A stretch of 64,000 bases of DNA from contig NZ_CP087131.1 in assembly GCF_020911865.1 (NCBI RefSeq), positions 3,596,001-3,660,000 of the forward strand, given 5' to 3'. Both the position numbers and the translations under genes were made by a program. The notes under the pieces were generated by a model, which was not told where the DNA came from, did not search any database, and was given only the letters and a program-made list of their open reading frames with translations. The DNA comes from Chryseobacterium sp. C-71. Lineage in GTDB: Bacteria > Bacteroidota > Bacteroidia > Flavobacteriales > Weeksellaceae. Position 1 is the first letter of the stretch. Every line of letters starts with the position of its first letter. Shown in pieces: positions 47,665 through 64,000 of the stretch.

Positions 47665-48840
47665 ATGAGCAAGTTATTTGTTGCAGGAGAAGTATTCCAC
47701 GGAGCGGGAAGTCTTGAAGAATTAAAAAATATCAAAGGTAAAAAAGCAGTTTTGGTGACTGGAGGAAGCTCGATGAAAAAAAGCGGGACTTTGGATAAAG
47801 CAGTCGCTTACCTGAATGAAGCGGGAATAGAAACCAAGATCTATGAAGGAGTAGAAGAAGATCCGTCATCAGAAACTTGTTTCAAAGGTGCAGAATTGAT
47901 GAAGGAATTTCAGCCTGACTGGATCGTAGGGATCGGTGGCTGTTCAGCAATCGATGCGGCAAAAATGATGTGGGTTTTCTACGAATATCCGGATGCTGAT
48001 TTCGAAGTGATGATCAAACCTTTCAGTGTTCCGACTTTAAGAAAAAAAGCGAAATTCATTGCCATCCCATCAACCAGCGGAACAGGAACTGAAACTACAG
48101 GTCTTGCCGTAATCACAGACCGTGAAAAAGGTGTAAAATATCCAATCGTTTCTTATGAATTGACTCCTGATGTGGCAATTATCGACGGCGAGATCTGTGC
48201 ATCGATGCCGGCTCACGTTACATCAAACACAGGATTGGATGCTTTGACACATTGCGTCGAAGCTTATGTTTCAAACATCGACAATAATTTTGCAGATGCA
48301 CTTTCCAAAGGTGGTTTAAAAATCGTTTTTGATAATCTGAAAGAAGCGGTAAAAAATCCAAATAATATCACAGCCCGTCAGAATATGCATGATGCTTCAT
48401 TTATGGGAGGTCTTGCTTTCAACAATGCGTGGTTGGGAATTGTACATTCATTATCTCACCAGGTAGGAGCTTTGTTTGGCGTTCCTCACGGTGCTTGTAA
48501 TGCGATTTTCTTACCGAATGTGATTCGATTTAATGAAAAAGAAAGCAGTCGTTTTCCGGATCTGGCAAAAGTGATCGGTAAAGAAACCACTGAAGAATTG
48601 GCTCAGGCTATTGAAACTTTGAGATCAGAAGTGAACAACCAATCTGCAATAAAAGAATTCGGGATCTCTCGTGAAGACTGGGATAAAAATCTGGACTTTA
48701 TGGCAAACAATGCATTTTTAGACCCTTGTACAGGATTCAACCCTAGAAAACCAACCGTTGAAGAGTTGAAAGATATTTATAATGCTTGTTATGAAGGTCT
48801 TGTTTATTCAGAGGAAAAGGTTTTAAATGCAGCTTTATAA
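47665..48840 (+). CDS. Iron-containing alcohol dehydrogenase
   Basis: A 391-residue group III dehydrogenase. The NAD(P)-binding part shows GGSSMKKSG and GIGGCSAIDAAKMM (about residues 90-105). The metal site appears in GLDALTHCVEAYVS, HSLSHQVGALFG and VPHGACNAIFLP. It reduces aldehydes or oxidises alcohols in the cytoplasm. The length is normal. It is monocistronic behind its own promoter, with a strong terminator downstream, and is probably controlled by the adjacent AraC protein. Confidence 0.94.
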   Translation: MSKLFVAGEVFHGAGSLEELKNIKGKKAVLVTGGSSMKKSGTLDKAVAYLNEAGIETKIYEGVEEDPSSETCFKGAELMKEFQPDWIVGIGGCSAIDAAKMMWVFYEYPDADFEVMIKPFSVPTLRKKAKFIAIPSTSGTGTETTGLAVITDREKGVKYPIVSYELTPDVAIIDGEICASMPAHVTSNTGLDALTHCVEAYVSNIDNNFADALSKGGLKIVFDNLKEAVKNPNNITARQNMHDASFMGGLAFNNAWLGIVHSLSHQVGALFGVPHGACNAIFLPNVIRFNEKESSRFPDLAKVIGKETTEELAQAIETLRSEVNNQSAIKEFGISREDWDKNLDFMANNAFLDPCTGFNPRKPTVEELKDIYNACYEGLVYSEEKVLNAAL

Positions 48841-49376
48841 CTCAAATTAAGTAAACAATCCAATTTGTATAAACCCTTAAACTAGTTTAAGGGTTTTTCT
48901 TAAGCTTGTTTATTGAGTGCCGTGAACCATTAAAGTTAGTTCTGTCATAATATTTAATTATGAAAAAACAGCAATAACTGCACTTGCGGTGTTCGTCCTT
49001 CAATGGGATTCTCTTCCACAGTGAATGCAAAAAAACAAAATATTAAGGCAAATAATTTTTAAATATTTGTGTTTGTTTACTAAAATGCTAATATTGTTAA
49101 ATTTCCAAGTACGTGCATTTTATTCTCTGATGAATTATTTTTTTTTTGTAACTCATCATCTAAAATATGGGGATATTTTGTTCTATAGCAAACTAATATC
49201 TTAATTGCTGCAATAAAATATGTGAAGTTATATTGTATATTCTTTTTTTAAGGATTGGTATATATACATATTTTATTTCAACACTTACTTCGCCAAGATA
49301 TTATTAAGAACGCTGTTTTATTTTAGTTCAATTAACAATATCTTTGGAATGCTTTTTTAAAAAGACAGTCAATCAC
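48841..49376. other. Intergenic region with terminator and a signal-peptide remnant
   Basis: After the terminator, the only coding trace is a short frame at 48960 reading KTAITALAVFVLQ, broken by a frameshift and ending as STVNAKKQNIKANNF at 49062. It resembles the signal region of a lost secreted protein. The rest is strongly AT-rich and marks the left edge of the accessory region. Confidence 0.5.
48871..48896. terminator. Terminator after the alcohol dehydrogenase
   Basis: A perfect 26-base palindrome: AAACCCTTAAAC at 48871-48882 pairs with GTTTAAGGGTTT at 48885-48896, followed by further T. It can act on both strands. Confidence 0.85.
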
Positions 49377-50720
49377 ATGGACGATCAAGATGTAACATAT
49401 CCGATCTATTCACCAGCCTCAGTCATTGGGATTTTCAGCAATGCCCTGAAGCTCAATGCTACGGTCAATCTCATCTATCTTAAAGGAAGGTATGCGTATG
49501 GTGGCGGTAAATCCTATGGAAACTATTATTATGATCTACTGTTCTCAGAAGGTGATCATACTTCGATCGGCATTCGTATTTCTTCATTACTCAGGAGCAA
49601 GATTACCAATAATGAGATGTATACGCTCAGAGGCTTTATTGAGAAAAGCATTAAGAATTCTTCGATTGAATTACGTTTTGTTGTGGACGAGATCGTTCAG
49701 CAGGAAGAAAGATCGATATCTGAAGAGGAACTGGAAAGGTACGCACTGATCCAGAAAAAACTCGAGACAGGGTCAAAAGACCTTGAAACTCTTATCAGGG
49801 ATAAGATGCTGAAAGATGAAAAGGTAAGGGTCGCTAACATTTATGGAAACAATGCGATCGTGCAAAAGGACTTTTTTGAAGGATTGGATGTTTCCCGAAA
49901 ATATTTTCATATTTCCGATCACAGCTGCAACATCACGTCGTCTACTGCTATCATTTCGATACTGAACGAAGTTTCTGCTTTGGATTATGATATCGTTGCT
50001 TTGGTAAGGGGAGGAGGAGACCGTCAGAGTATGGAAACCTTCAATGATATAACCTTATCAGAGTTATTCATTAAGATGAACATGGTTACTGTGACTGCCA
50101 TAGGTCATACGGTTGATGAGACCTTATTGGATAAGCTGGCTGACAAGCGTTTTCATTTGCCACACGATTATGGGGCTGGATTACATGCCATTGCTGAAAA
50201 ATTATCCCATGAAAGATCCAATTCAAGGGCTCTTCTCATAGATGAGGTCAAAAAGGATGTCACCAAGCAGTTTTCGGAGCAGGTAGAAACTTTGGAAAAA
50301 CAGCTGAAGAAAAAAAATGAGGAATTTGCAGAAGCCCAGAAAACATACAAGGAACAAAGCGAGGCGCATAACAAGACCTTTTCAGATCAGCTTAAGGTAA
50401 GGAATGAAGAGTTTCAGAAACTTCAGATAACATCAGGGAAACAGTTGGAAGATCTGCAGAAGAATTTTCAGGAGCAGCAAAAACAGCGACAGGCAGAAAT
50501 GGAGAGCTATAAAAAAGAGATCGCTGTTCTGCACGAAAAGAATGTACAGTCTGCCATCAATGAAAAGACTTCGTCTTTGCAGATCAATCTGGAAACATTG
50601 AAACAGGAAAATGTCAGGTTGAATCTGGAGGTTCAAAATAAAAAAACTGATTATGTCAAGATCATTATTGCATTTGTTCTGGCACTCATTATTGGATTTG
50701 TGGTGGCGAAAATCCTGTAA
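49377..50720 (+). CDS. Membrane-anchored exonuclease VII large-subunit-like protein
   Basis: The ATG at 49377 is preferred over the TTG at 49344. The 447-residue protein has an N-terminal OB-fold region (about residues 10-105), the XseA core with ALVRGGGDRQSMETFND (209-225) and TAIGHTVDETLLDKLADKR (240-258), a long coiled coil (about 270-420), and one C-terminal transmembrane helix (about 428-446). These are XseA landmarks in order, but real XseA has no membrane anchor, and no XseB gene is nearby. It may be a membrane-tethered nuclease acting on foreign DNA. Confidence 0.85.
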   Translation: MDDQDVTYPIYSPASVIGIFSNALKLNATVNLIYLKGRYAYGGGKSYGNYYYDLLFSEGDHTSIGIRISSLLRSKITNNEMYTLRGFIEKSIKNSSIELRFVVDEIVQQEERSISEEELERYALIQKKLETGSKDLETLIRDKMLKDEKVRVANIYGNNAIVQKDFFEGLDVSRKYFHISDHSCNITSSTAIISILNEVSALDYDIVALVRGGGDRQSMETFNDITLSELFIKMNMVTVTAIGHTVDETLLDKLADKRFHLPHDYGAGLHAIAEKLSHERSNSRALLIDEVKKDVTKQFSEQVETLEKQLKKKNEEFAEAQKTYKEQSEAHNKTFSDQLKVRNEEFQKLQITSGKQLEDLQKNFQEQQKQRQAEMESYKKEIAVLHEKNVQSAINEKTSSLQINLETLKQENVRLNLEVQNKKTDYVKIIIAFVLALIIGFVVAKIL

Positions 50721-50846
50721 TTATTTAACATGATGCTTTTTGTTTATTAGTGTGTAAATTTTAAAAAATTAGTAATTTGTTCGTTAATGGTCTGTCAAAT
50801 CGTAAATAAACTATTTTTAGTGTTAAAGTATAAAGATTAGTAAATT

Positions 50847-51506
50847 CTATTTTAAACGTACATCCCAAACTAAAAGCTTTGTTTCTTTTTCTATATGATT
50901 TGCAGTAAGAGTTTCATTATAGACCAATCTACTTTCAAAACTTCTATTAAGCGGTTGGAAAACATTGAGAAATCTTTTATCAAATTTATTAGTTCTTTGT
51001 TGAAGTTGATAATCGATAATATCATTTGTTATTAGATAGTCTGCTGGAAATCTGTCTACGATTCCGCTTCTGATTTGATGACCAAGCATTTTGCTGTCTG
51101 CAACACAAATAAATAATCCATTTGTGTTATTAAAGTGAGATTCTAGAGATACTCTCACCATATCATTTAAAAGTTTTACAAGACGCGCTGTTTTGTTTAT
51201 AGTTCCATTTTCATTACTGTTTTGGCGAAAAAGTCCGAATTCAACAGATAGTTTAAAATCCTTTTCGTCAACAACTAGATCGATCAAAGGCTTTTCATTT
51301 CTAAAAGATATTTTTTCTTTTGCTGGGATGAAACATTGGTGATTAATAGGAACTTCAATATGAATTTGAGAAGCCCTAAATTTATAGGTATCCATTAGAC
51401 TTATAAAAAAATCATATCTTATAGAGTCTTCGCCAATTGACAATAAAGGCTTTGTGTCTAATCTCTCTTCTAATAAAGTCTTATAGTTCTGAAATAGCTC
51501 TTGCAT
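50847..51506 (-). CDS. PD-(D/E)xK-like nuclease-fold protein of a CBASS-like operon
   Basis: A 219-residue soluble protein. GEDSIRYDFF (Glu26), IHIEVP (Glu51), PLIDLVV (Asp76) and SVEFGLF (Glu89) follow the order of PD-(D/E)xK nuclease families that begin with an EDSxRY helix. The usual ExK Lys is replaced by Gly (Glu-Phe-Gly), so the catalytic state is uncertain. It starts 26 bases after the E2-like gene and is the last of three co-directional genes, the position expected for an effector or accessory. It could instead be an uncharacterised cofactor. Confidence 0.65.
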   Translation of the reverse strand: MQELFQNYKTLLEERLDTKPLLSIGEDSIRYDFFISLMDTYKFRASQIHIEVPINHQCFIPAKEKISFRNEKPLIDLVVDEKDFKLSVEFGLFRQNSNENGTINKTARLVKLLNDMVRVSLESHFNNTNGLFICVADSKMLGHQIRSGIVDRFPADYLITNDIIDYQLQQRTNKFDKRFLNVFQPLNRSFESRLVYNETLTANHIEKETKLLVWDVRLK

Positions 51507-51532
51507 AAATTTTCATTTGTTAAAAAATTAAT

Positions 51533-52528
51533 TTATAAACACGTTTTGTAATATTCCAGCAATTTAGTTGTTTGGGAAAAAATAAAACGATCAGAGTTTG
51601 TAAACATAAATGAATTTAGTTCGTTTATTTTTTTTTCATCAAGTTTTTCTAAAATATATTTTTCTTTTGGGTTTTTATCATAATTGATAATTAGTGCTAA
51701 TCGGGGATTTATAGGATAGTAAACCCTAAAATTTATTACTTTAAAGAGGGGAATCACTTTTCCATAATGTTTCTGTTGACATTTCTGTTGGAAGTTATAG
51801 AGCATTATAATGATTTGCTGAGGAAGATCAAGTTCTGTCCAAATTGTTTTTGCAAATCGGTTATAAGTTGCTGGAGGACTATCCCTAAAAAGATAAATCC
51901 CTTCTAAATCTGTAGGTTGACTTAGGTAAAATTCATTCCAGGAGCAGTTCTTATTTACTTTTAAAACTGATTCAAAATATTTAACGTAAAAATTTCTGAT
52001 GTGCTCATCTTTGTACTTACCGTCATTTAATAATGATAGTTTTACAATTCCAATCTCTCCATCTACAAACTCCTTATCTGTTTCTGTAAATGTAAATGAG
52101 TATCTGCTTCCATTTAATGACAGATCATTTACTACGAGATGCTCATATTTTAGATCCTTCTCTTTATTGATGAAATATTTTTGAATCCAATCTTTGAGAG
52201 AATGGAAGTCGATCCAGATTTTTTCTTCAACATTTTCACTGTGTGCCGTGTGAATACAAATGTTGCCATTCTGCATTACGTGACTGTATTGAATCAATTC
52301 AAGGTTGAAAAAAGTAATTGATTCCGAATCATGTGTCTTTAATGGATACTCTGGTGTTATTACAAAATCGAACAATAGAGGGGCTTCTAATTCAGGAAAT
52401 GCAATCTTAATGTTACCCGTAATCAAAAAATCCCCAAGTTCTATATTATTAATATTACTTACGAAGGGAATTTCTAATATGGTTGACCTGATTTTTTCGA
52501 ATCTTGCCCTATCCAAAACGTTGGTCAT
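51533..52528 (-). CDS. E2-like ubiquitin-conjugating-fold protein of a CBASS-like operon
   Basis: A 331-residue protein. Residues about 30-125 follow the E2/UBC pattern: FDFVITPEYPLKT (P-x-YP-type), then YSHVMQNGNICIHTAH with the candidate catalytic Cys91 and a following tryptophan-rich segment. No E1 or JAB domain is fused, which fits the short type II CBASS organisation with E2 alone; this is known to regulate or prime the cyclase by conjugation. The C-terminal two-thirds are of unknown fold. The start codon overlaps the end of the CD-NTase gene by 20 bases. Confidence 0.72.
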   Translation of the reverse strand: MTNVLDRARFEKIRSTILEIPFVSNINNIELGDFLITGNIKIAFPELEAPLLFDFVITPEYPLKTHDSESITFFNLELIQYSHVMQNGNICIHTAHSENVEEKIWIDFHSLKDWIQKYFINKEKDLKYEHLVVNDLSLNGSRYSFTFTETDKEFVDGEIGIVKLSLLNDGKYKDEHIRNFYVKYFESVLKVNKNCSWNEFYLSQPTDLEGIYLFRDSPPATYNRFAKTIWTELDLPQQIIIMLYNFQQKCQQKHYGKVIPLFKVINFRVYYPINPRLALIINYDKNPKEKYILEKLDEKKINELNSFMFTNSDRFIFSQTTKLLEYYKTCL

Positions 52529-53459
52529 TTTTTGGAATTGATAGACCGGAAGATCCTTTCAGTCCATATGATTCTGATTTTTCAAAATCTTTATTAACAG
52601 GAAAATATGTTTTAATGTTTTCAGAATTGTCAGTGATCCTGTCAATTATATTTTTCATTTTATCAGATAGATTCTGACGTTCCCACTGCTCAAAATTTTT
52701 AATCAGATCATTGCTTTGATTTCCCGGATCCTTTAAGGTGAAGTCCTCCTTTGTAACATTGTCCTTAATGTACGTCAATACACCTTCAAGTTTCTCCCAA
52801 AGATTTCCGGTGATGATTGATTTATCAAACGCTTTTAATGTCAAAAGCTCTAATAAAAATGATTTATAGGACTCGCTATTCGTATTTTTCCAGATTTTAA
52901 GCAACCTGATTATTTTTCTTTCATCATCTCTTGACTTAATAGTATCAATTTGTGATTGAATATTTGTCTTCATATAAGTGCCTTTGCTAAAACCCCACTT
53001 ATCTTCATTGAAATATATGTTAAGATCCCTAATGTCTACATAAGAATTTTCGCTAATCTCTCTGCCTGGTACAACGTCAATGCCTATTTGATCACCGTCT
53101 TTATCTGCATTGAACAATACGCCGATTGAAACCTTTTGTTTTCGCACTACTGCAATACCTGTTTTATGGTATTTTTCATACAAGAAATCATGCATGCCAT
53201 TGTACATATCTTCAATTGTAGAAAAGCTGTATCTCTTGAATGGAACAACAATATCAAGGTCAAACTTAGTATTGATTGCCGTATGTTTTCCAAAGGATCC
53301 GGAATTGAGAGGACTGTAGATATCAGAATTGTATTTTGCTTCTAAAGCTTCTTTTATCTCACCCCGTTTGTCTTTATATTTATTAACTAAACTACTGATA
53401 TGACTCATTCGATGAGTCTCTAATACATTCGCTAAATGTTCACTTCTGTTAACTGCCAT
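52509..53459 (-). CDS. CD-NTase (cGAS/DncV-like cyclase) of a CBASS-like operon
   Basis: A 316-residue nucleotidyltransferase. The active site is NSGSFGKHTAI (Gly54, Ser55), FDLDIVVPF (Asp67, Asp69) and GIDVVPG (Asp128), all three acidic residues intact. Helical C-terminal half follows. Such enzymes make cyclic di- or trinucleotides on phage infection and activate an effector. It is the first gene of the three-gene minus-strand operon, and its gene overlaps the E2-like gene by 20 bases. The clade and product nucleotide cannot be decided by eye. Confidence 0.85.
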   Translation of the reverse strand: MAVNRSEHLANVLETHRMSHISSLVNKYKDKRGEIKEALEAKYNSDIYSPLNSGSFGKHTAINTKFDLDIVVPFKRYSFSTIEDMYNGMHDFLYEKYHKTGIAVVRKQKVSIGVLFNADKDGDQIGIDVVPGREISENSYVDIRDLNIYFNEDKWGFSKGTYMKTNIQSQIDTIKSRDDERKIIRLLKIWKNTNSESYKSFLLELLTLKAFDKSIITGNLWEKLEGVLTYIKDNVTKEDFTLKDPGNQSNDLIKNFEQWERQNLSDKMKNIIDRITDNSENIKTYFPVNKDFEKSESYGLKGSSGLSIPKNDQRFG

Positions 53460-53488
53460 AATAAAAGGTTTATTAATTTTTATAATGA

Positions 53489-53538
53489 ATATTTGTCAAA
53501 TAGAATACCGAGTCTTTTGAATAATATGATATTTGTCA
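53489..53538. promoter_or_regulatory. Two direct repeats upstream of the CD-NTase gene
   Basis: ATATTTGTCA occurs at 53489-53498 and again at 53529-53538, exactly 40 bases apart, about four helical turns. They lie 30 to 79 bases upstream of the cyclase start codon and could bind a regulator. Confidence 0.4.
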
Positions 53539-53885
53539 TATTTTTGGTAAGTAGGACAGGATGTCTTATTTTTTATTATAAAATGTTGTTTTTCAAACAG
53601 TTGTTTAGGGTTTTGATAAGCCTTTATGACAATTTTACAGGTCACATCCTATATACATAATACTATTTCTTCTGATAGTATAAATTCAAATTAGTGTATG
53701 TAAAACGGAACTTTTTGCAGAAATTTTTCAGACCAATCCTGTGGACAGTAATTCAACCGTATCTCTCACAACATTCTTTTGATTTATTATTCTAACACAA
53801 GTAGATCATATTTCAAGCTAACATCATTCCTTTTGAGGCTAACTGATTTTCTATAGCAAATATATTCCGTGGTCACTGCGGAAAA

Positions 53886-53939
53886 AAATCTTTTTGGGTA
53901 TCCGGGATCGGAGATCCCAGAACCTCCACAAAAAGATTT
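53886..53939. repeat. Large nested inverted repeat
   Basis: Outer arms AAATCTTTTTG (53886-53896) and CAAAAAGATTT (53929-53939) are perfect over 11 bases. Inside, GGGATC (53904-53909) pairs with GATCCC (53913-53918) across a 3-base loop. It could be a structured RNA, a terminator or a cruciform. Confidence 0.65.
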
Positions 53940-54092
53940 CAAGCTTTCATCAATGTTCTTTCTTATTGTTTTCAAGGTATTGATTGCAGTTTTCCTTGTG
54001 CCTGCCTGAATGGTTATCCGCATAGAAAAAGTCAGAAACCTCACAAGATGCAATTGCAGTTCATTGAAATTTTGATCCTTATTTATTCTCTT

Positions 54093-54192
54093 GATATAAA
54101 TCATCTCATAAGATGTTGATATAAATCAATTGATCAGATTCTTATATAAACCACTTCGTCAGATGTTAGTATAAATCAATTTATCATACGAT
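54093..54192. repeat. Four tandem 25-base repeats (iteron-like)
   Basis: Four adjacent imperfect copies start at 54093, 54118, 54143 and 54168. The shared frame is ATATAAAYCA in the first half and TCAGATgTT-like in the second. Copies follow without spacers. They precede the RadC-like gene by about 110 bases and resemble protein-binding iterons of a mobile element. Confidence 0.75.
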
Positions 54193-54303
54193 ACGACCGA
54201 GTAAAAGAATAGAAAAAGTCAAAGTTTCCTTCAAGCTGCAATTCACGGGTTTTAATTTAAGTGCGGGAAAAACAGGTCTCCGCCGTACTCGGAGCAGGAA
54301 ATT

Positions 54304-54747
54304 ATGAAATTCAATATAGTCAACGAAATTAAATTGAGCTACTCAAGAAAGGGAAATTGTGAAAGGTCTATATCATCATCAGCGGATGCAGCGGATGTTT
54401 TCAGGGCACATTTTGATGCGGAAGAAATGGACTACAGGGAATCGTTCTTTGCGCTGTATCTGGATCAGGCGAATAAGGTGCTGGGAATTAAGAAAATATC
54501 TGAATGCGGCATCTCTTCGACTTTGGTCGACGTCAGAATCATTATGCAGGCGGCTCTTCTTTGCAATGCTTCAGGGATCATCGTTTCCCACAATCATCCT
54601 TCGGGAAATCTTAAACCGTCATCCGCTGATATTAAGATGACCGCAGAGATTAAAGAAGCTGCGAAAATTCTGAAAATGTCACTGCTTGACCACGTCATCC
54701 TGACATCGGAATCACATTTTTCATTTGCGGATGATGGAATAATCTGA
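54304..54747 (+). CDS. RadC-like JAB-domain protein
   Basis: A 147-residue JAMM-domain protein with the metal motif SHNHPSGNLKPSSAD (His96, His98, Asp109) and the typical LLDHVILT near the end. It lacks the N-terminal helix-hairpin-helix region of full RadC (about 220 residues). Short forms like this are markers of Bacteroidota conjugative elements and genomic islands, with unknown function. It is followed 60 bases later by a DUF4099/DUF3945 protein, a common partner in such elements. Confidence 0.92.
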   Translation: MKFNIVNEIKLSYSRKGNCERSISSSADAADVFRAHFDAEEMDYRESFFALYLDQANKVLGIKKISECGISSTLVDVRIIMQAALLCNASGIIVSHNHPSGNLKPSSADIKMTAEIKEAAKILKMSLLDHVILTSESHFSFADDGII

Positions 54748-54807
54748 GTATAAAATAATAAGCAATCAAAAAAGTAATAGTATCAAATAATATCTAAAAT
54801 AATCATC

Positions 54808-56088
54808 ATGAACAAAATAGGAAATCATACAGCAATTTCAGAGGTGAGTACTTTATTGGTACTTCGTCACAGTAAAAATTCTATCGGAATTGTACAGGGA
54901 ATCGAAAACAACGGAAATCTTATAGACGTTCCTCCGAACCGTACCAACATTCATTCCGTAATGAGGATCGATTCTTCGGAGTATTCTTTTACGGACTTCT
55001 ATTCGGATTTTTATCATCAGCTCAAAGATCCCTCTGAATATTCATTTTTTAAGGTAAGGGAATTCGAGGCGCACGATACAGCTATCAATTTACAGGAATA
55101 TATTAATTGTTTATCAGATGTAGAAAGACAGGATCTGAAATCGGTTGAAGTGTCTATTGAAGCGGTCAATGCGATCAGAAATAAGAAAACCAATGAAAAG
55201 GAGACTTCTTTTTTGAAGAAGGGTTTTAGTAACGGGTCACTTACTATTAATAGTAGTTCTCAATACCGCTATCAGATTGAGGATGTTCCATGGGACACGA
55301 TGGCTGAATTGGGTCTTAACAGGGAAACGTTGGAAGAAATCGGTGCGTTGGATACTCTGTTGAAAGGCTATAAAACACCAATGTTGATTCCGATACTTTT
55401 TAATGATGGGGAAGAGGTAAGCCAGATTGATGCACGCTTACAGTTGCGGATCGATGATGATGGAGAATTAATTGTGAAGGTGCATCGGGTTCTTAAGAAA
55501 GTGGATTTCAGAAAGAAGTTTAAAAGTCACAAGTTTACAAAAGAGGATAGGGTCAATCTTTTAAATTCGGGGAATATGGGCAGAGTGGTGGATCTTACTG
55601 ATACAGTTACAGGAGAGATAATTTCTTCACTGATAAGTTTGGACAGGCTGACCAATGAGCTGATTTCTTTGCGGATGGAATTTGTGAGGATTCCTGATGT
55701 GCTTTGCGGTGTGAAATTGGATTTGGAGAAGAAGAAGGTGCTTCGTGATGGGAAAGCTTTGTTTATTGAAAATATGGTATCGAAGAAAGGGAAGCTTTTT
55801 TCTGCAACCGTTCAGTTCAATGCGGACAGGCAGTGGGTGGAGTTTATGTTTGAGAATAAGTTTAGAAGTTCTGGTTTTAGCAGAGTGAATCATTCTGAGC
55901 GGGAAGTTCCTTCACATTTCAGAGGGGTAAAGCTTCGTCAATGGCAGATGGATCAGTTAAAGGCTGGGGAGACGGCATATATCAAGGGACTGGAAAGCAG
56001 AAAGGGTAAGACTTATCAGGGTTATATCCAATTTGATAAGACGACAGGAAGGATTGTGTTTTCTTTTAAGGATCCTAAGAATAAATAG
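54808..56088 (+). CDS. DUF4099/DUF3945-domain mobile-element protein
   Basis: A 426-residue soluble protein. The middle (about residues 155-240) has the DUF4099 pattern (VPWDTMAELGLNRETLEEIG, then GYKTPMLIPILF), and the C-terminal part has two DUF3945-type repeats (KSHKFTKEDRVNLLNSGNMG near 248, and LRQWQMDQLKAGETAYIKG near 379). These proteins are typical of Bacteroidota conjugative transposons. The role is unknown. Together with RadC it marks this segment as part of an integrated element. Confidence 0.9.
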   Translation: MNKIGNHTAISEVSTLLVLRHSKNSIGIVQGIENNGNLIDVPPNRTNIHSVMRIDSSEYSFTDFYSDFYHQLKDPSEYSFFKVREFEAHDTAINLQEYINCLSDVERQDLKSVEVSIEAVNAIRNKKTNEKETSFLKKGFSNGSLTINSSSQYRYQIEDVPWDTMAELGLNRETLEEIGALDTLLKGYKTPMLIPILFNDGEEVSQIDARLQLRIDDDGELIVKVHRVLKKVDFRKKFKSHKFTKEDRVNLLNSGNMGRVVDLTDTVTGEIISSLISLDRLTNELISLRMEFVRIPDVLCGVKLDLEKKKVLRDGKALFIENMVSKKGKLFSATVQFNADRQWVEFMFENKFRSSGFSRVNHSEREVPSHFRGVKLRQWQMDQLKAGETAYIKGLESRKGKTYQGYIQFDKTTGRIVFSFKDPKNK

Positions 56089-56154
56089 GGGAGTCTTTAA
56101 AATGTTTTGGAACTCTGGAAAAAGGGAGTAAGTAAATTGATGTAATTTTTTAGT

Positions 56155-56184
56155 AACCTGCAAGGTCGATTGACTTTGCAGGTT
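56155..56184 (+). terminator. Terminator after the DUF3945 gene
   Basis: AACCTGCAAGGTC (56155-56167) pairs with GACTTTGCAGGTT (56172-56184) over 13 positions, one of them a G-U pair, with a 4-base loop and a T-rich stretch behind. Confidence 0.75.
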
Positions 56185-56229
56185 GCTTTGTTTGGGTTTT
56201 CGATGGAAATGCGTGATGAAAATCGGGCG

Positions 56230-56272
56230 GCAAAAATGCAATTCCTCCCTATGGTCGGAAATGCATTTTTGC
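56230..56272. repeat. Nested palindrome, possible att or recognition site
   Basis: GCAAAAATGCA (56230-56240) pairs perfectly with TGCATTTTTGC (56262-56272). After one mismatch TTCC (56242-56245) pairs with GGAA (56257-56260), and CC/GG pair again around TAT. It is a strong 43-base hairpin behind the mobile-element genes, without a T tract fit for termination. Confidence 0.7.
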
Positions 56273-56440
56273 GGAATTTGGAGCAACCCCATTTCTAAAA
56301 CATTGCCGATCTTGGCTTTCCTATGTTTTTGAAAAAAGGTTGTGGAGATTTAGAATATCAATATTTTAATAGTCAATATATAGATGTATAGTATAAAATG
56401 AAATAGTAACAACATTAGTTTTATCCTGATGATTTGATTA

Positions 56441-57094
56441 CTATGAATTATAAAAACTCCAACTAATGTTCCATTTCATCTCCTTCTTAAAGTTAGTAAG
56501 TTTTTTTATAATTCCTTTTTTGTGATCAGTTCCACAAATTAAAATTGCATTATTATAAGGGTATTTAATACTGTAGTTATAAATATTATTTAAAATTTCT
56601 GTTTCTCGTAAATCATGAATAAATGTTTCCTGTTGATATTTTTCTAAAAGAATTTTTGGAGCATTTTCCTTCAGTACTTTAAGTTCTAATGACTTTAATT
56701 CTGAGATCAGTTCAGTACATGCAGGACTATTTAAAAAATTAAATCCAAAATCTGCCACAGATCTTATAAGCTTTTCAAATACTTTATGATATGATTCACT
56801 TCGCTCAACAATAAAATCGTAGTCCGAAAATAATTCATGTAAATCAAACTCATATGTATCCACAGGGAAATGTTTAATGTCATAATTTCTAATGTAAACA
56901 CTTATAGCTTTTGACTCAACCGTTTGCGGCGGTCTTTGACCAGAATAGATTGAATGAAAAACATGGGCAGGTAGTTCCTCAAAAATGACGTCTGGTTTTA
57001 TATTCTCAAGAATTTTGTATAACTCATGAGGATTGCATTTTCCTACTTCCATATGAAAAGACGATAGGAGTGTGATGTTAGAAGTAAAGTTCAT
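56441..57094 (-). CDS. Putative TraB/TIKI-like protein
   Basis: A 217-residue soluble protein. LSSFHMEVGK near the start, KPDVIFEELPAH (about residues 33-44) and ILICGTDHKKGI near the end give the order of His, Glu and GxxH elements seen in the TraB/PrgY/TIKI superfamily, which includes metalloprotease-like and regulatory proteins. The match is weak, so the assignment is tentative. It is the last gene of the minus-strand operon after the HNH gene, separated from it by about 430 bases, so membership in that unit is not certain. Confidence 0.5.
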   Translation of the reverse strand: MNFTSNITLLSSFHMEVGKCNPHELYKILENIKPDVIFEELPAHVFHSIYSGQRPPQTVESKAISVYIRNYDIKHFPVDTYEFDLHELFSDYDFIVERSESYHKVFEKLIRSVADFGFNFLNSPACTELISELKSLELKVLKENAPKILLEKYQQETFIHDLRETEILNNIYNYSIKYPYNNAILICGTDHKKGIIKKLTNFKKEMKWNISWSFYNS

Positions 57095-57521
57095 TTTTTT
57101 TAGTATTAATAAATATTACTGACAAAAAATTAAAATTTTAACATTGTAAAATTAAATTAAAAGCTTGTAATATTTAAATAAACACTATAAAGCTTTAACT
57201 TATTGATGAAGATGATATAATAATTTCATACTATGTATATAACAATAGTAATAGCTATGATGTAATGATTATCAAACTTAAAGATTGATATGCAGATATC
57301 ATGAATCAGATAACAATACCTCAAATATCTTTCTTTTAATGATAGTATTTTCGAAAACTATCAAAACATCACACAGTTCCTTATTCCTAAAAGACTTGCC
57401 AAACTCTAGAAAGGAAGAAATGATTTTTCACATCATTCTGATGCAAATTTTTCAGATGGAGTCATTTAAATATTTTGTAGGTTATTAATAGTTTATCATT
57501 TGTAAAGCATTTGCTAAAAAT
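57095..57521. other. AT-rich intergenic region
   Basis: These 427 bases between two minus-strand genes are very AT-rich. A 67-codon plus-strand frame at 57285-57488 has no recognisable features and is probably chance. I see no clear promoter or terminator. Confidence 0.5.
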
Positions 57522-58187
57522 TTAATCAAATGTAAAACCTTCAGGATATACGATTCCAATGAATTCTGCGTGCTCATAGAAATCCATAAATATTGTGAAT
57601 AGACCTTGTGCCGCAAAGTATTTATATCTGAATACTTCGGGATTATTATATTCACCCTCTTTAACAAGTGCCGGATGCAGGTCTTCCTTTAAAAAATCAA
57701 CTGCAGCAATGGTGTTGAAACCTTCGTAAACAATTCTTTTTGAAACACTGTGAATAATTCCTTTTGCAGGTTTTTCATGATGATAGAAATAAACACCTCT
57801 AATGATTTTTTCAATAAACATTTCTGCTTCATTTTCCTTTAATGAAAGAAAGAAATGTGATTTTCCATATATCGTACCAGATCTAGCATTTTCTTCCAAA
57901 TCTTGTATGAAACTTTGTTTTTCCTTTCTTCTCAAGCCTCGTAGAACTCTTTCTTCCAAATCTTTTTTTGCTACAGCATTTGTCTTGAAGGCTTTGATAA
58001 AGAATTGGAATTTATCATCGAGTTCCGAAAAACTGTTGTTATGTTTTTTGCAAGCAGGTACTGTCATCAGATTATTTCTGTGACCTGTCGGAAAAAAAGC
58101 TAATGGTGGCACGTGCTCCTTACTTGCCAGCTGGTCTGTCAAAGGACATCCGCACCAATAGCATATTTTAGGAAGTTTATTTTTCAA
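57522..58187 (-). CDS. HNH-type nuclease-like protein
   Basis: A 221-residue protein. The N-terminus has the zinc and HNH pattern ICYWCG (Cys9, Cys12), SKEHVPP (Glu24, His25), and VPACKKHNNSFSELDDKF (Cys46, His49, Asn50). This is the form of HNH proteins where EHxPP precedes a CxxHN motif. The C-terminal part is helical and unassigned. It lies between the CPxC fragment and the TraB-like gene, downstream of the caspase fusion gene, and might be a DNA-cleaving partner. Confidence 0.8.
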   Translation of the reverse strand: MKNKLPKICYWCGCPLTDQLASKEHVPPLAFFPTGHRNNLMTVPACKKHNNSFSELDDKFQFFIKAFKTNAVAKKDLEERVLRGLRRKEKQSFIQDLEENARSGTIYGKSHFFLSLKENEAEMFIEKIIRGVYFYHHEKPAKGIIHSVSKRIVYEGFNTIAAVDFLKEDLHPALVKEGEYNNPEVFRYKYFAAQGLFTIFMDFYEHAEFIGIVYPEGFTFD

Positions 58188-58541
58188 TTAATTGTTAAGC
58201 TTTAAGTATTGTTAATTAAACTTAGAAATTATTAAATGAACCGCTCAATTTCCGTTTCAAGTTCTAAGATTTTATCAAAAATTTTTAAAATAGTTTTCCC
58301 CAATTCCCACAACACTCTGCACTTAGGACATTCGTTAACAGTAATGTTATTTTTTTTGATCTCCTTTGCAACTTCTCTGATCGTCTCGTCAGTATGTAAT
58401 TGAATTAGAGATATCTATAGATATTAAGGAAAAAATAATCGAGATACAGATTTACTATGCAACCATTTTTAGATTCTTCAATCCAGTATCTGAATTCTCT
58501 CAGAAAATGTTCTATTTACTATTCTACTTAAATGATTTATT
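58188..58541. other. Gap with a small cysteine-rich ORF
   Basis: Between the HNH gene and the caspase fusion gene. The only coding content is the CPxC frame at 58232-58414; the remainder near 58420-58541 is AT-rich with no signal seen. Confidence 0.5.
58232..58414 (-). CDS. Small CPxC-motif protein, start unclear or truncated
   Basis: The minus-strand frame of 60 codons encodes LHTDETIREVAKEIKKNN, then ITVNECPKCRVLWELGKTI, and the helical tail ILKIFDKILELETEIERFI before the stop at 58232. The codon pattern and the CPKC motif look like real protein sequence, but no ATG, GTG or TTG is in frame: a stop lies directly before it. It is either a fragment or a small gene with an unusual start. It could be a zinc-ribbon-like partner of the neighbouring genes. 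Confidence 0.45.
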   Translation of the reverse strand: MSLIQLHTDETIREVAKEIKKNNITVNECPKCRVLWELGKTILKIFDKILELETEIERFI

Positions 58542-61500
58542 CTATAATTTTAAAATTACATTTTCATAACTAGAATCGAGGATGGCTTTAGGATTTTGAT
58601 CTTTTCTTAGTTCGTCTTTTGCAAATTTCGCTACGCTGGTAGAGAGGTAATCTCTAAGCAGCCTGTCTGTTATATAGTTATCTCCTTTTATCACATCTGG
58701 AACGTTGCCTCCTAAAGCATTTACGAGATGATATGTCCATATTCCATTTTCTAAAGTATCGCTAGAATATGAACTTTGACCTGATTGGCAAGAAAGAAAT
58801 GTAATGTAAGTCGGGTGATCAACAGAAAGTAGTATTAGTTCTTCTTCATCAATGTTAGAAATGTGACTTCTCTCGTTTTCATCTATAAAACTTTGTGCGC
58901 AAGCATCTATAAATATTAATGCATTTTTACACTTTGATTTTTGTAAAGGATCTATTAATAGTGATCTTAGTGAAACAGATGTCTCCGGGATATTACTTAT
59001 ATGCATGTCGTAAGTCGATAAATAATTAGTTATACCGCTATGGAAACCATGGCCTACATAATAAAAAATCAGTCTGTCATCTTTTTCCAATGAATGAAAT
59101 AACGACTTTAGATTGTATTCAATTGAACTTTTAAGAGCTTCCTCATTCAAGAACATATAAATCTCCTCTTCCTCAACACCGAAATCTTCCAGTAACATCT
59201 TTTTGAACTTTAAAGAATCTGAATTTGCATATTTAACTGGAAATATGTTGTTTTTTGGATAGTAGTTTTCAATACCAATAATAATTGCGACTGTTTTTCT
59301 AAATTTTGGAATATTTAATATTGTTCGCAATGTTTCTTTGGTACCTTCTACAAGAGACTCTGAATCCTCTCTTACATATTTTTTATTTTCAAACAAAATA
59401 TCATTATCAGATTTATTAGTTTGAATCATATAGATGGACCTATCTCCAATTCGTACCCAGTCATAATGTACAGAGGGAATCGGATGAAGTAAGGATATTG
59501 CTTTTTTTGTTATTTCATCAATTCTAAAATCATTGCTGATACCAACTATTTCATTGTTATTAGGGCTTATTTCTTTAACTCCAAAAATTATTGATCCACC
59601 GTTAGTATTTGCAAATGATGAAATAATCCGAGCAATTTTTTGGGGCACGAAAGGAACAGCACTTAATTCTAATTCGTTACTTCTTGCTGTAGTTAATAAT
59701 TTGTCAATATTAGAACTGGAAATATTTGTATTTCCAACTGGTATTCTATTAATACCAGTTTTTTTAAGTAGTTGCCCCAAGGTTATTTGTCTTGGTGCAT
59801 TATTACCGTCTTCGTACCATAATTCTGCATCAACATATTCTAAAACATCAAATTCAGAACTATAATATAAGAGTATAAAATCTTTGTCAGATGGTCTTGC
59901 CACAAGTGTTATTTCATTTCCATTTTTCGTGATGCCGCCAATAATACTTTCTGCAATGATGTAATTATTGCTCAGATCATATTCAGGAAAGGTCGAAAGA
60001 TAATTAATAACATTTGTTACTGCTCTTGCTATGATATTTTTAGTATAGTTTAATAAGTCAAAATCAGGTCTTGATAAATGATAGAACTCAGAAGTTATCA
60101 CGGTATTATCAGGTATTTTAATTATTTCTGTTGAATAATCACCATCTAGGATGCTAGGAAGGTCAATATCTGATGTAGTAACCATACCTAAAATTTCTGT
60201 AGGTATATTGATATTTTCTTGCTTGAAATGCTGATGTATCTCTTCCTGGGATGACCTTAATAAAAATTCTAATTTCTTATCATATCCCAGTAGGTAAAAA
60301 TATCTACATAGAACTTCAGGTAGCCTTAATAACACACTATTGCTAGTCCATGGCTTTGTGACAAATAGATCTGGCCTATCAAAATGAACATTAACATTCT
60401 TGACAAAATCTATATCGGTATATTTAATTTTTAGCTCATCCGCTTGATAAATATTTAGAGTATTGATTTTATGTTCAAGACTTTCCAGTGATTCATTAAT
60501 TTTGTAATCAATTGATTCGGCTTCAATCCATATTTTAAAGTGGGGAATAATAGTCTTAAGCTTGGTTATCAAATCGGAACAATTTTCTTTGTGAGAATAA
60601 CTCAGTTCAAAATCACTTTCTCTTAGTATTTTTATTTTTAAGCATTCTAACAGGAACTCTAAATCCGGATGCTTTTTGTTGTCTGAATTGATAGCTAAAA
60701 ATGAAAATTGATCTTGAAAAATTGATTCATTCCCATCGATGAAAAATTTAAGAGAACTACATTCAAGAAAGATATTTTTTGTCGTTAATAAATAACCTTC
60801 AGCTGCCCAATCTCCAACTTTTAAAATGTCTCCTTCACTCCAATTCCTGCATTGATCCAACAAAATTTTGTATATAGATTGAATACGTGTTATATTCTCT
60901 TTTTTCACCTTGCCATCAATGTTAAGATCAGAAGAAACCTTTCTTAATATTTCCAAATAATCATCTAGTTGTAGTTGTGTCCTAAAATTGAAAAAAGCTT
61001 TCCAATTTGTTGATAATTGCTCCCCAGAGAAAACAGGAAGGTAATTACCTGAGAGTTCAATAATATTTTCTGAATTAAGGTAAATTTCATTGGCCTTTTT
61101 TACAGTTTTCATTACATTTGGCAAGCAATCTACATTTTTAATGTACCAAGCAATGTAATTTGCGACTTCATCCCCTTTGGTTCTTCCATCTCTTCCCCTA
61201 TCGCCCCAATACGCTATAGAAGATGTGTTCAAGTCATCTAAGCTTATGTTTTTAATAACGTCGTCCCAAAACATTTTTGCAAATTTGAAATCTGAAGATT
61301 GTGAGAGGAAGCTTAGTACTATTAAATTTGAGTACTGATCTGCATTAAATCTTGTCAGCCATGGCTTAAAATACTTATCTTCATCAACGAAAAACTCGTT
61401 TTTTAAGTCATGATTATTTACTAATGCAATCCTGCTTTCATCATTATAAATTACTGGCACAATCCCCTCCATCACACCCATCATTTTAAAGAAGCGTTTC

Positions 61501-63572
61501 CATTCGTTTTTATCTGATTTTTCTAACAGGTATTTTTCGCTTATAAAAATGTCGTCGCTTATTTCATTTTCTAATTTTAGTCGCGGTTCAAAAGAATCTG
61601 AAAAATAACAGCAGTGTGCTGGCAATAGGGTTTCTTTAGTGGTCAATATTTTTAATTCAGATAGGGCACCTAATTCTTCCCTCCCAATATCACTTTTTAA
61701 GTAGAGGCTATAGATGGTCGATATTGTATCGAATGTGTTTTCTGTAGTGCCATAAGTAGAAGCGTTAGCGATTATTGTTTTTCTAAGGTATGAAAGGTCT
61801 GTTTTCTCTATTACCCCTAGATTTTCTAACCAATTTCTTGTATCAGGGTTTTGCAGTAAAAAAGATTGAATGTCAGAATGAAGAAAAGAAATCTCACTAT
61901 CTGGATCATTCCAAGTCTCATCGTCAGGCGTGGGAAAGTAAATATTATTTGGACGCTGTAATTTTCCTTTGTGATCTAGTATAAATGACCAATCCCTTAT
62001 TATGTTTTCAGTAATGTTCTTTTGTTTTTCAATTTCACATTCTTGCTTTAAAAATTGAATTAACTGAATGTTGCTTGTGGAATAATGACTTTTTAAAAAT
62101 AAATTAGACTCTAATAATTTAGGTAGATCCGCCCAATCAAAAATGCTTACCCCAACATTTTTAAAAGTATTACTGTATATAGTGTGTGGTAGAAACGGAT
62201 GTGAATGTATTCGTTTGCTGCTGTTTTTATCAATTATGTATTCACGTGCAGTATTTTCTGTAATAAAAGTATTTTTTGCAATCAAAGTAAAATCAATAAT
62301 TGCTTGATTGATCCTAAGCAGCTCCTGCTGGTTTGATAAAATAAATGGTATCGATTCGAGCGCATTTGCTACCCCTTTGCTATACTGTGTGCCTAAAACA
62401 TTGCTAATGATGGATTTGGTTGGTACCAGTTCGTAAGCGCTTTGTCCATATTGCCCTGTTATTAATTCTGAAACCCATTTCAATAATTCAGCAGGAATAT
62501 TATTGAATAGCCATTGGTTCCATTTTGAATCTTCATGCAATGTTTCCCTATTTGCACTCATTACAAAGCTGCTATTAACTAAAACGGGAACGGCATATTT
62601 TCTTTCTTCAGTAGGAAGGTAAGAATAAAGAAGCCTTTCATCAATATCAAGTTTTTGAATACTGTCCTGATATATTTTTGCGGCAAACGTCAATTCTGTA
62701 TCGGTTGCATTCAAAAGTTTATCTGGGATATTCTTTTCTTCCTTTAGCTTCGATCTTATTTCAGCCGGAACTTGTAACCTTATGGTTCTCAATATCCAAG
62801 AGAATTTAGAATGTCCGTTTTGCTTAATGTCGACTGTTCCGTCTTGCTCCCTATGAAGAGTAATAAGATTTGATGTTCCTAAATTAAAATCCAATTCTTG
62901 TATGTTTTTTAGAAATAAAAACATATTTACGTTTGCAGATAGTTCGTCCAATGCTTTTTTTACATCGTCTTTGCCTTTTGATAATAATATAATTGTTGCC
63001 ACAGTAAATTCCCCCTCATTTATGAAGTCAATTATTCTTTCATCAACATTTTCATTGCTTGTGTATATAGGTATAATTTGCCACGGAAAAGAAAATAGCC
63101 GGTCATTTTCTAATTCCCAATTATGCTGATCAGTTCCCCATTTAGTATTCCACTCAAAAGGATAACCTGCGTCAAATCTGAAAAACTCCTTATCTGAATA
63201 AATCAGCACTTTTTCTGATTGTCCAAAAACAGCTTTAAAACCTATTCCCTTATAACCGGTTTTTTCAACAGATTTTTTTTTGGTTCCGTCACTGACACCG
63301 CAGATCCCCCTTAGGTCCCTATTGTCAAAAGGCTTACCGGTATGTCCAACCACTAGGAAGTCGTTAAAAAGTCTTATCCCGACCCTTACAGGAATATTTG
63401 AAATTACTGAGTCATCGGCATTTTGAAGCAGCTCGTAGACAAACCTTTTTGAATCAGTATATAAATCAACGGATAAAGATTTTAATGATTCTGCTTGATT
63501 TATGGCATGCTCTGGCTCAGCATAACCTGTATTCTTTTTGAAAATATCCTGAATGTCGCTTTTAAGGCTCAT
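58542..63572 (-). CDS. Sacsin/HSP90-type ATPase, AlbA_2 and caspase-like fusion protein
   Basis: A 1676-residue protein in three parts. The N-terminal GHKL ATPase (about residues 30-250) shows FVYELLQNADD (Glu47, Asn51), the GHTGKPFDNRDLRGIC block and TGYKGIGFKAVF (105-116), the sacsin-type ATP-binding signature. A long helical middle follows (about 250-1290). An AlbA_2/Schlafen-like domain (about 1295-1420) has FANTNGGSIIFGV. The C-terminal caspase-like domain (about 1425-1640) has YYVGHGFHSG (His1508) and FIDACAQSF (Cys1558), so the dyad is intact. An ATP- or nucleic-acid-triggered protease for abortive infection is the likely role; this is inferred. Confidence 0.85.
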   Translation of the reverse strand: MSLKSDIQDIFKKNTGYAEPEHAINQAESLKSLSVDLYTDSKRFVYELLQNADDSVISNIPVRVGIRLFNDFLVVGHTGKPFDNRDLRGICGVSDGTKKKSVEKTGYKGIGFKAVFGQSEKVLIYSDKEFFRFDAGYPFEWNTKWGTDQHNWELENDRLFSFPWQIIPIYTSNENVDERIIDFINEGEFTVATIILLSKGKDDVKKALDELSANVNMFLFLKNIQELDFNLGTSNLITLHREQDGTVDIKQNGHSKFSWILRTIRLQVPAEIRSKLKEEKNIPDKLLNATDTELTFAAKIYQDSIQKLDIDERLLYSYLPTEERKYAVPVLVNSSFVMSANRETLHEDSKWNQWLFNNIPAELLKWVSELITGQYGQSAYELVPTKSIISNVLGTQYSKGVANALESIPFILSNQQELLRINQAIIDFTLIAKNTFITENTAREYIIDKNSSKRIHSHPFLPHTIYSNTFKNVGVSIFDWADLPKLLESNLFLKSHYSTSNIQLIQFLKQECEIEKQKNITENIIRDWSFILDHKGKLQRPNNIYFPTPDDETWNDPDSEISFLHSDIQSFLLQNPDTRNWLENLGVIEKTDLSYLRKTIIANASTYGTTENTFDTISTIYSLYLKSDIGREELGALSELKILTTKETLLPAHCCYFSDSFEPRLKLENEISDDIFISEKYLLEKSDKNEWKRFFKMMGVMEGIVPVIYNDESRIALVNNHDLKNEFFVDEDKYFKPWLTRFNADQYSNLIVLSFLSQSSDFKFAKMFWDDVIKNISLDDLNTSSIAYWGDRGRDGRTKGDEVANYIAWYIKNVDCLPNVMKTVKKANEIYLNSENIIELSGNYLPVFSGEQLSTNWKAFFNFRTQLQLDDYLEILRKVSSDLNIDGKVKKENITRIQSIYKILLDQCRNWSEGDILKVGDWAAEGYLLTTKNIFLECSSLKFFIDGNESIFQDQFSFLAINSDNKKHPDLEFLLECLKIKILRESDFELSYSHKENCSDLITKLKTIIPHFKIWIEAESIDYKINESLESLEHKINTLNIYQADELKIKYTDIDFVKNVNVHFDRPDLFVTKPWTSNSVLLRLPEVLCRYFYLLGYDKKLEFLLRSSQEEIHQHFKQENINIPTEILGMVTTSDIDLPSILDGDYSTEIIKIPDNTVITSEFYHLSRPDFDLLNYTKNIIARAVTNVINYLSTFPEYDLSNNYIIAESIIGGITKNGNEITLVARPSDKDFILLYYSSEFDVLEYVDAELWYEDGNNAPRQITLGQLLKKTGINRIPVGNTNISSSNIDKLLTTARSNELELSAVPFVPQKIARIISSFANTNGGSIIFGVKEISPNNNEIVGISNDFRIDEITKKAISLLHPIPSVHYDWVRIGDRSIYMIQTNKSDNDILFENKKYVREDSESLVEGTKETLRTILNIPKFRKTVAIIIGIENYYPKNNIFPVKYANSDSLKFKKMLLEDFGVEEEEIYMFLNEEALKSSIEYNLKSLFHSLEKDDRLIFYYVGHGFHSGITNYLSTYDMHISNIPETSVSLRSLLIDPLQKSKCKNALIFIDACAQSFIDENERSHISNIDEEELILLSVDHPTYITFLSCQSGQSSYSSDTLENGIWTYHLVNALGGNVPDVIKGDNYITDRLLRDYLSTSVAKFAKDELRKDQNPKAILDSSYENVILKL

Positions 63573-63631
63573 GTTAGTTTTTTTATTTATCTAATTGGTT
63601 AACTATAATAATATCAACGTTGCAAACCCTT
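63573..63631. other. Short operon gap upstream of the caspase fusion
   Basis: A gap of 59 AT-rich bases lies between the partial gene at the window edge and the large fusion gene, both on minus. No terminator is visible, so co-transcription is likely. Confidence 0.5.
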
Positions 63632-64000
63632 TCATTTATTTTTTAAAATTATTCTAAATTGAGCTGATCCATCCGGTATTTCATTAATGTCATAATATTC
63701 ATCTTCCCCTTTTGTCTTTGCATCATCATAAAATATTCGCCGATATCCGTAAGTTTCTATATCTTCCTTTTTAAACGATTGGATACCAGGCGAAAATTCT
63801 GATTGACAACAAAATAATTTCCTAATTGAATCAATATGATTAGGAAAGACATATTCAAAATAAAATTGCTGGGATTTTGTAAGGGTATTGGATCTTATAT
63901 CAGATATTATATTTGTCTCGACAATTCCAAGGCCGAGTTCGTTTATACTTGGAATACCTATGCAGTCTAATCTTGTTGGATTGGCTGACAATGGCCTCAG
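63632..64000 (-). CDS. C-terminal part of an unknown protein (cut by window edge)
   Basis: The minus-strand frame is open from the window edge to the stop at 63632, and the TTG at 63991 is inside the gene rather than its start, since the frame continues as LRPLSANPTRLD upstream of it. The visible 122 residues contain GIPSINELGLGIVETNIIS, YFEYVFPNHIDSIRKLF and an acidic KTKGEDEYYDINEI, with no recognised domain. It lies 59 bases before the caspase fusion gene on the same strand, so it is likely its operon partner. Confidence 0.6.
   Translation of the reverse strand: MRPLSANPTRLDCIGIPSINELGLGIVETNIISDIRSNTLTKSQQFYFEYVFPNHIDSIRKLFCCQSEFSPGIQSFKKEDIETYGYRRIFYDDAKTKGEDEYYDINEIPDGSAQFRIILKNK

Follow-up and report, generated by a model that had tools for sequence, protein, structure and literature searches.

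A sacsin/Hsp90-like ATPase fused to a caspase in Chryseobacterium: a possible single-gene infection alarm

Introduction

Tiamat (TmtA; PADLOC profile PDLC03972) is frequent in the island hotspots of Pseudomonas according to the accessible text of PMC12629846, and its mechanism is listed as unknown in the openly available parts of a review (PMC12926258) and a survey (PMC10482375). The protein described here, from Chryseobacterium sp. C-71, is like Tiamat in starting with a sacsin-type GHKL ATPase, in matching the profile over its body with 923 bits and, probably, in working as a single gene. It is unlike Tiamat at its C-terminus, which consists of a domain that we call X, an AlbA_2 domain and a caspase, whereas two relatives with full profile matches (L006 and L008) end in NOV_C; a Pfam scan (E ≤ 1) found no NOV_C in the 1676-residue protein. 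It also differs from sacsin, as the same scan gave no DnaJ, UBL or HEPN match at this threshold. The word ‘sacsin’ occurs twice alongside phage terms in the accessible text of a paper on AbiA (PMC11077055).

Caspase conflict systems have been described by Kaur et al. (2020, 2021; PMC7159879, PMC8195603). In the accessible text of these papers the EACC1/EACC2 systems use a caspase as a built-in signalling protease, as may the present protein, but join it to EACC domains and to C-terminal regions that vary; our caspase scores 43.9 with the NCBIfam model of EACC1-associated caspases (NF047832), below the cut-off of 140. As far as the two main texts are accessible, ‘HSP90’ and ‘AlbA’ occur in neither, and ‘sacsin’ occurs once, in PMC8195603, in an animal context. 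In the canu (caspase–nuclease) loci a MALT1-like caspase serves in defence (PMC12799240), and our caspase is MALT1-like by structure match. However, in canu as described in the accessible text the MBL-fold pro-nuclease is a separate protein and the caspase is followed by an Ig-like domain, whereas our chain ends with the caspase; that text mentions no Hsp90-like ATPase, and the words Tiamat, Hsp90, AlbA and sacsin are absent from it. Type IV Thoeris and bacterial NLRs with proteases, both named there, couple infection sensing to a caspase-like protease. The chain described here may do the same. Type IV Thoeris and the bacterial NLRs rely, however, on TIR signalling or on STAND ATPases and not on a GHKL ATPase fused to the protease.

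An earlier note on this DNA knew of no described system with this order of domains, which holds within the openly searchable literature: searches there showed no description of a TmtA-type sensor combined with a caspase (PMC10952713, PMC12409349 and PMC12839542 included, as far as their text is accessible), a weak negative since most subscription papers and bioRxiv lie outside it. As no description was found, what we count as new is the apparent TmtA-type sensor carrying a caspase effector; TmtA and caspase conflict systems were already known.

Results

The gene lies on the minus strand at 58542..63572 of the window, by which we mean the whole stretch of 64 000 nucleotides that was analysed. 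It is an uninterrupted open reading frame with an ATG start, coding for 1676 residues, and its full length is conserved across the family. The genome (one contig of 4,219,626 bases) has a single full-length copy and one more place with a weak match to residues 1414–1511. Pfam places SACS at residues 37–229 and SLFN_AlbA_2 at 1311–1404, both over the cut-off, and the NCBIfam model of the sacsin N-terminal ATP-binding region gives 71.7 bits (cut-off 50); the PADLOC caspase match is weak (39 bits) and a single-sequence search of the PDB returned nothing at E ≤ 1. The domain scans and the intact frame bear out what the earlier note saw, a sacsin/HSP90 ATPase followed in one chain by AlbA_2 and a caspase; to its three domains we add a conserved fourth, X (residues 1157–1280). 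Upstream, 13 promoter-like sites were found against 12.0 expected; no terminator was found, there are no Rfam families in window positions 48000–64000 and there are no tRNAs in the whole window.

Homologues number at least 278 (query residues 1280–1676, E ≤ 1e-3). Conservation was counted in the best 120 of these, using the 106 longer than 1500 residues and leaving out the 14 of 1500 residues or less; the 106 are referred to below as the full-length relatives. The names among these best 120 of 278 include Belliella, Myroides, Flavobacterium, Sphingobacterium, Tenacibaculum and Marivirga, and also Clostridium, Bacillus, Paenibacillus, Cohnella and Alkaliphilus, and the NCBI protein names of these members are generic. 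Among 148 genomes of the genus, the C-terminal query has a match in 10 (E ≤ 1e-10), and the full-length gene is found in its own genome only. One congener (G489, L056:10126-10749) retains a 3′ remnant of the gene in a frame of 207 residues, and Chryseobacterium ginsenosidimutans has a 376-residue piece (P0131) that is 97% identical to residues 1130–1503 and ends ahead of the catalytic His. The distribution of the gene is thus sporadic, and sporadic gain with decayed remnants fits an accessory defence gene. A scan of genome contigs with six short peptide patterns, which is not a census, confirmed three loci among 11 candidate stretches. As for a home on mobile elements, no relative was confirmed in viral contigs (one phage record had a match covering 6%), and 22 plasmid records matched, none with 80% coverage.

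By PADLOC profile match alone, residues 1–1127 (60192..63572, minus strand) form a TmtA/Tiamat-like body, the 923-bit match covering profile positions 1–1103 of 1302; the last 200 or so (1104–1302) have no match in the protein. As a specificity control, the profile also fires in seven of 14 well-known genomes (scores not shown), so that weak matches to it mean little; the present score is far higher. In our own genome it gives 20.4 bits for another frame of 634 residues, which is perhaps HtpG. The ATPase domain (residues 18–240; 62853..63521, minus strand) has an Hsp90/sacsin fold match, and the SACS domain is accompanied by ATP-binding motifs. In the N-box ELLQNADD (residues 47–54; 63411..63434, minus strand), E47 is kept in 104 and N51 in 105 of the 106 full-length relatives (best 120 of at least 278); in the glycine-rich motif GYKGIG (residues 106–111; 63240..63257, minus strand), G106, G109 and G111 are each kept in all 106. 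The ATP-lid region (94–104) is of low confidence in the structure model, and the glycine-1 motif carries a His (H77). Hsp90 has an Asp at this position and sacsins differ there too; with H77 in place of the Asp, ATPase activity is not certain.

The caspase domain (residues 1426–1676; 58545..59297, minus strand) has a caspase fold with a His/Cys dyad and resembles the metacaspase/paracaspase type. The dyad had been called intact, and it is: His1508 (59049..59051, minus strand) and Cys1558 (58899..58901, minus strand) are each kept in 106/106 full-length relatives (best 120 of at least 278) and in 41/41 of a wider caspase set with identity down to 28%. Set A1 comprised the stretch from our protein and 40 of 61 related proteins, and set A2 eight sequences. 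The same counts (106/106, best 120 of at least 278, and 41/41) hold for Asp1452 (59217..59219, minus strand), which aligns with the metacaspase nD motif, and for Asp1556 of the DxC motif (58905..58907, minus strand), both in the predicted S1 pocket. The DxC motif and the upstream Asp are the acidic S1 residues of metacaspases and paracaspases, and because Asp1452 and Asp1556 match these the protease is predicted to prefer Arg or Lys at P1. Arg1568 (58869..58871, minus strand), ten residues past the catalytic Cys in a low-confidence loop of the structure model, is kept just as widely (106/106, best 120 of at least 278; 41/41). Caspases have an activation site in the loop after the catalytic Cys; Arg1568 is a candidate self-cleavage site or else a structural residue.

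Related caspases occur in other company. In P0158 (600 residues) and P0160 (590 residues) a member of the same subfamily, 46–47% identical, follows an N6/N4 DNA methylase domain, possibly a restriction-like system in which a protease replaces the nuclease. On an Agrobacterium plasmid (L011:7078-9500) a caspase of 39% identity lies directly 3′ of a pPIWI-associating nuclease gene (PADLOC Aga_Nuclease, 346 bits), and the same stretch holds N-6 DNA methylase, AbiE and restriction endonuclease genes. P0157 (639 residues) has a caspase, about 51% identical, behind a pentapeptide-type domain (PF13576), while P0155 (271 residues; name from Dickeya fangzhongdai), also about 51% identical, is a nearly bare caspase.

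The AlbA_2 domain spans about residues 1299–1410 (59343..59678, minus strand; Pfam SLFN_AlbA_2, 45.3 bits over 1311–1404). Three acidic positions were mapped on it from an alignment and from the Slfn13 positions, which include an E-x4-E motif. Residue 1302 is acidic in 105/106 and residue 1334 is Glu in 100/106 of the full-length relatives (best 120 of at least 278), but the first acidic position of E-x4-E is Lys in 97 and Arg in six, 103/106 together, which makes a Schlafen-type RNase look unlikely. A reading in which AlbA_2 nevertheless acts as the effector, namely as an RNase of Schlafen type switched on by the caspase, could call on the two acids that are kept and on bacterial Schlafen-linked systems, described as anti-phage RNases in the accessible text of PMC12839542; given the basic residue at the first position, we hold it to be highly improbable. 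AlbA_2 may instead have nucleic acid as its ligand, or may just keep the caspase in place. In Bacteroidota genomes (L019, L025, L026 and L027) proteins of 361–364 residues start with a similar AlbA_2, the match being confined to that domain.

Domain X (59733..60104, minus strand) has no Pfam model match, and the structure matches for the model containing it span only model residues 283–546, so that X is barely covered. Five of its residues (K1216, R1226, E1240, E1250 and W1252) are each kept in 106/106 full-length relatives (best 120 of at least 278). Cyanobacterial TmtA proteins of PADLOC group PDLC03967 (Calothrix, L012, and Dolichospermum, L013) end in X at 34–41% identity, and the Dolichospermum X used as a query returned 21 proteins. 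X is found on three TmtA groups, as the X-bearing proteins P0202, P0200 and P0201 fall into PDLC03972, PDLC03966 and PDLC03967, respectively. P0200 has another sacsin body and its alignment with our protein is confined to X, pointing to X as the connection with AlbA_2–caspase. The two open reading frames scanned on the 3′ side of the Calothrix and Dolichospermum genes gave no Pfam match and no AlbA_2 or caspase match, and X is therefore not always paired with this effector.

The two halves of the protein also occur apart. P0202 (1266 residues) is 43% identical to residues 1–1279 and ends there, right after X, and AlbA_2–caspase stands alone in P0143–P0148 (391–399 residues; 46–48% identity over 95–100%, starting in register), of which P0146 (391 residues) shows 45.5% identity to residues 1289–1676. 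P0202 and P0146 come with a single contig each, both 18400 bases long, and for both P0200 and P0148 the longest contig is of 8352 bases. From these equal sizes, the sensor and the protease of the split form apparently lie on one contig and are encoded together, and we infer that our protein is the fused form of such a pair.

Conversely, the body occurs with other C-termini. Among 395 Bacteroidota genomes searched at E ≤ 1e-60, four match: our own over the full length and three (G013, G194 and G316) over the body only. The proteins from G013 (L006; 1613.8 bits) and G316 (L008; 1175.7 bits) match PDLC03972 end to end and have a C-terminal NOV_C (E 2.1e-18 and 1.7e-12, respectively); one of three matches in 395 genomes of the order (G613, L060) shows a NOV_C-like C-terminal pattern by eye. 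The G194 protein (L007/L058) has SACS alone in Pfam, and the next gene encodes an SF1 helicase with a PIN domain. In this locus (L058:8163-15012) the TmtA-like body protein is of 1531 residues and the helicase–PIN protein of 755, possibly a third effector type. Judged from these domain architectures, the variety points to one sensor body that can be combined with different effectors (NOV_C, helicase–PIN or caspase), as NLRs do.

The accessory setting claimed for the gene is supported by its neighbours: defence genes adjoin it in all three intact loci that were read (our own, L003 and L004; L005 is cut off), three being too few for enrichment statistics. Our own island has a CBASS-type cyclase and E1–E2 protein (267 bits each; 51533-53459) and, on the other side, Vsr and a TdeIII-type restriction enzyme with two cytosine methyltransferase frames (named by eye), with HD-CE beside an ORC-CDC6-like gene and DUF4917 (PDC-S21) also on the Vsr side. 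In Cohnella (L003), the Lamassu genes LmuA, LmuC and LmuB (166, 51 and 420 bits) end 335 bp upstream. In Flavobacterium (L004), a four-gene cassette of MksBEFG/Wadjet type starts 46 bp downstream, with MksE at 90.7 bits and a MukB N-terminal match at 31.2 bits; Pfam matched neither of the remaining two genes, and for two of the four PADLOC gave no hit. On the upstream side, this locus has a helicase gene that ends at a distance of 104 bp, and a serine recombinase (by eye) is near.

Some further genes were seen along the way. The CBASS-like set of the window (50847-53459, minus strand) consists of the cyclase, the E1–E2 protein and a 219-residue protein with no match, and next to it (49344-50720, plus strand) lies an exonuclease VII large-subunit-like gene (72.6 bits) whose product has, by eye, a coiled coil and a hydrophobic C-terminus. 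At L009:7942-11748, an HD-CE protein, an ORC-CDC6-like ATPase and a 317-residue protein with no Pfam match follow one another and may make up a defence system of their own.

The defence genes nearby bear on a reading that gives phage no particular part, in which the protein is a quality-control or stress-death factor whose chaperone-like ATPase senses misfolded or damaged protein and triggers the protease. The Hsp90/sacsin fold agrees with such a role, and animal sacsin has been connected with protein quality control; the sporadic presence with remnants in relatives, the defence genes at 3/3 loci and the homology to TmtA all speak against it, and we regard it as quite improbable.

The three intact loci have no neighbour in common, and the gene is therefore probably a one-gene system. 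The proposal that operon neighbours may be parts of the system found no support: the 256-residue gene (same strand, 59 bp upstream), the 226-residue gene beyond it and the downstream HNH-like gene (weak HNH_5 match) have no counterpart in L003, L004 or L005 (tblastn, E ≤ 1), nor any match in L056 at the same threshold. The only non-self tblastn matches were two, both ignored, one of 20 residues of the 256-residue protein in L058 (E 0.26) and one of a G489 neighbour to L013 (E 0.029). These results also weigh on the idea that the caspase is an initiator and not an executioner, activating one pro-effector (a canu-like nuclease or a pore former) that does the damage. Canu loci operate in this way according to the accessible text of PMC12799240, and the 256-residue gene is a candidate pro-effector by its strand and position; yet it has no counterpart in L003, L004 or L005 and its DUF6615 match is below the cut-off (17.1 of 23.8), and domain scans found no MBL-fold match in the genes adjoining ours. 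We consider an initiator role unlikely. Unlike in canu, the lack of a common neighbour points to a host substrate more than to a dedicated pro-effector.

Discussion

We think it rather probable, judging from the sequence comparisons, that the protein is a one-gene anti-phage (or anti-mobile-element) receptor with sensor and executioner in a single chain, in which an ATPase-triggered caspase stops the infected cell. In this mechanism the sacsin/Hsp90-type body (residues 1–1127) would detect a trigger and close, change shape or dimerize with its ATP cycle, and X and AlbA_2 would couple the body to the C-terminal caspase. The caspase would be turned on by proximity, possibly with self-cleavage at Arg1568, and would then cut host (or phage) proteins after Arg or Lys, so that cleavage would end the infection together with the cell; the order of these steps is likewise what we would expect. 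A more specific proposal, offered tentatively, is a prokaryotic inflammasome whose switch is of the chaperone type, in which a GHKL clamp (not STAND/NLR) would sense infection and activate the Arg/Lys caspase through X, acting as a plug that fits different TmtA sensor groups.

The fusion of an Hsp90/sacsin-like ATPase to a caspase may thus be a self-contained infection alarm that shuts down the cell, and it has a parallel in animals, where immune receptors trigger caspases. A recognizable protease effector gives a direct handle on Tiamat, whose mechanism is listed as unknown. If the proposal is true, a GHKL, chaperone-type ATPase would join the switches that drive bacterial caspases, and Tiamat-like systems would be a modular receptor superfamily, with one kind of sensor body and NOV_C, helicase–PIN or a caspase as its effector, the GHKL analogue of NLR immunity.
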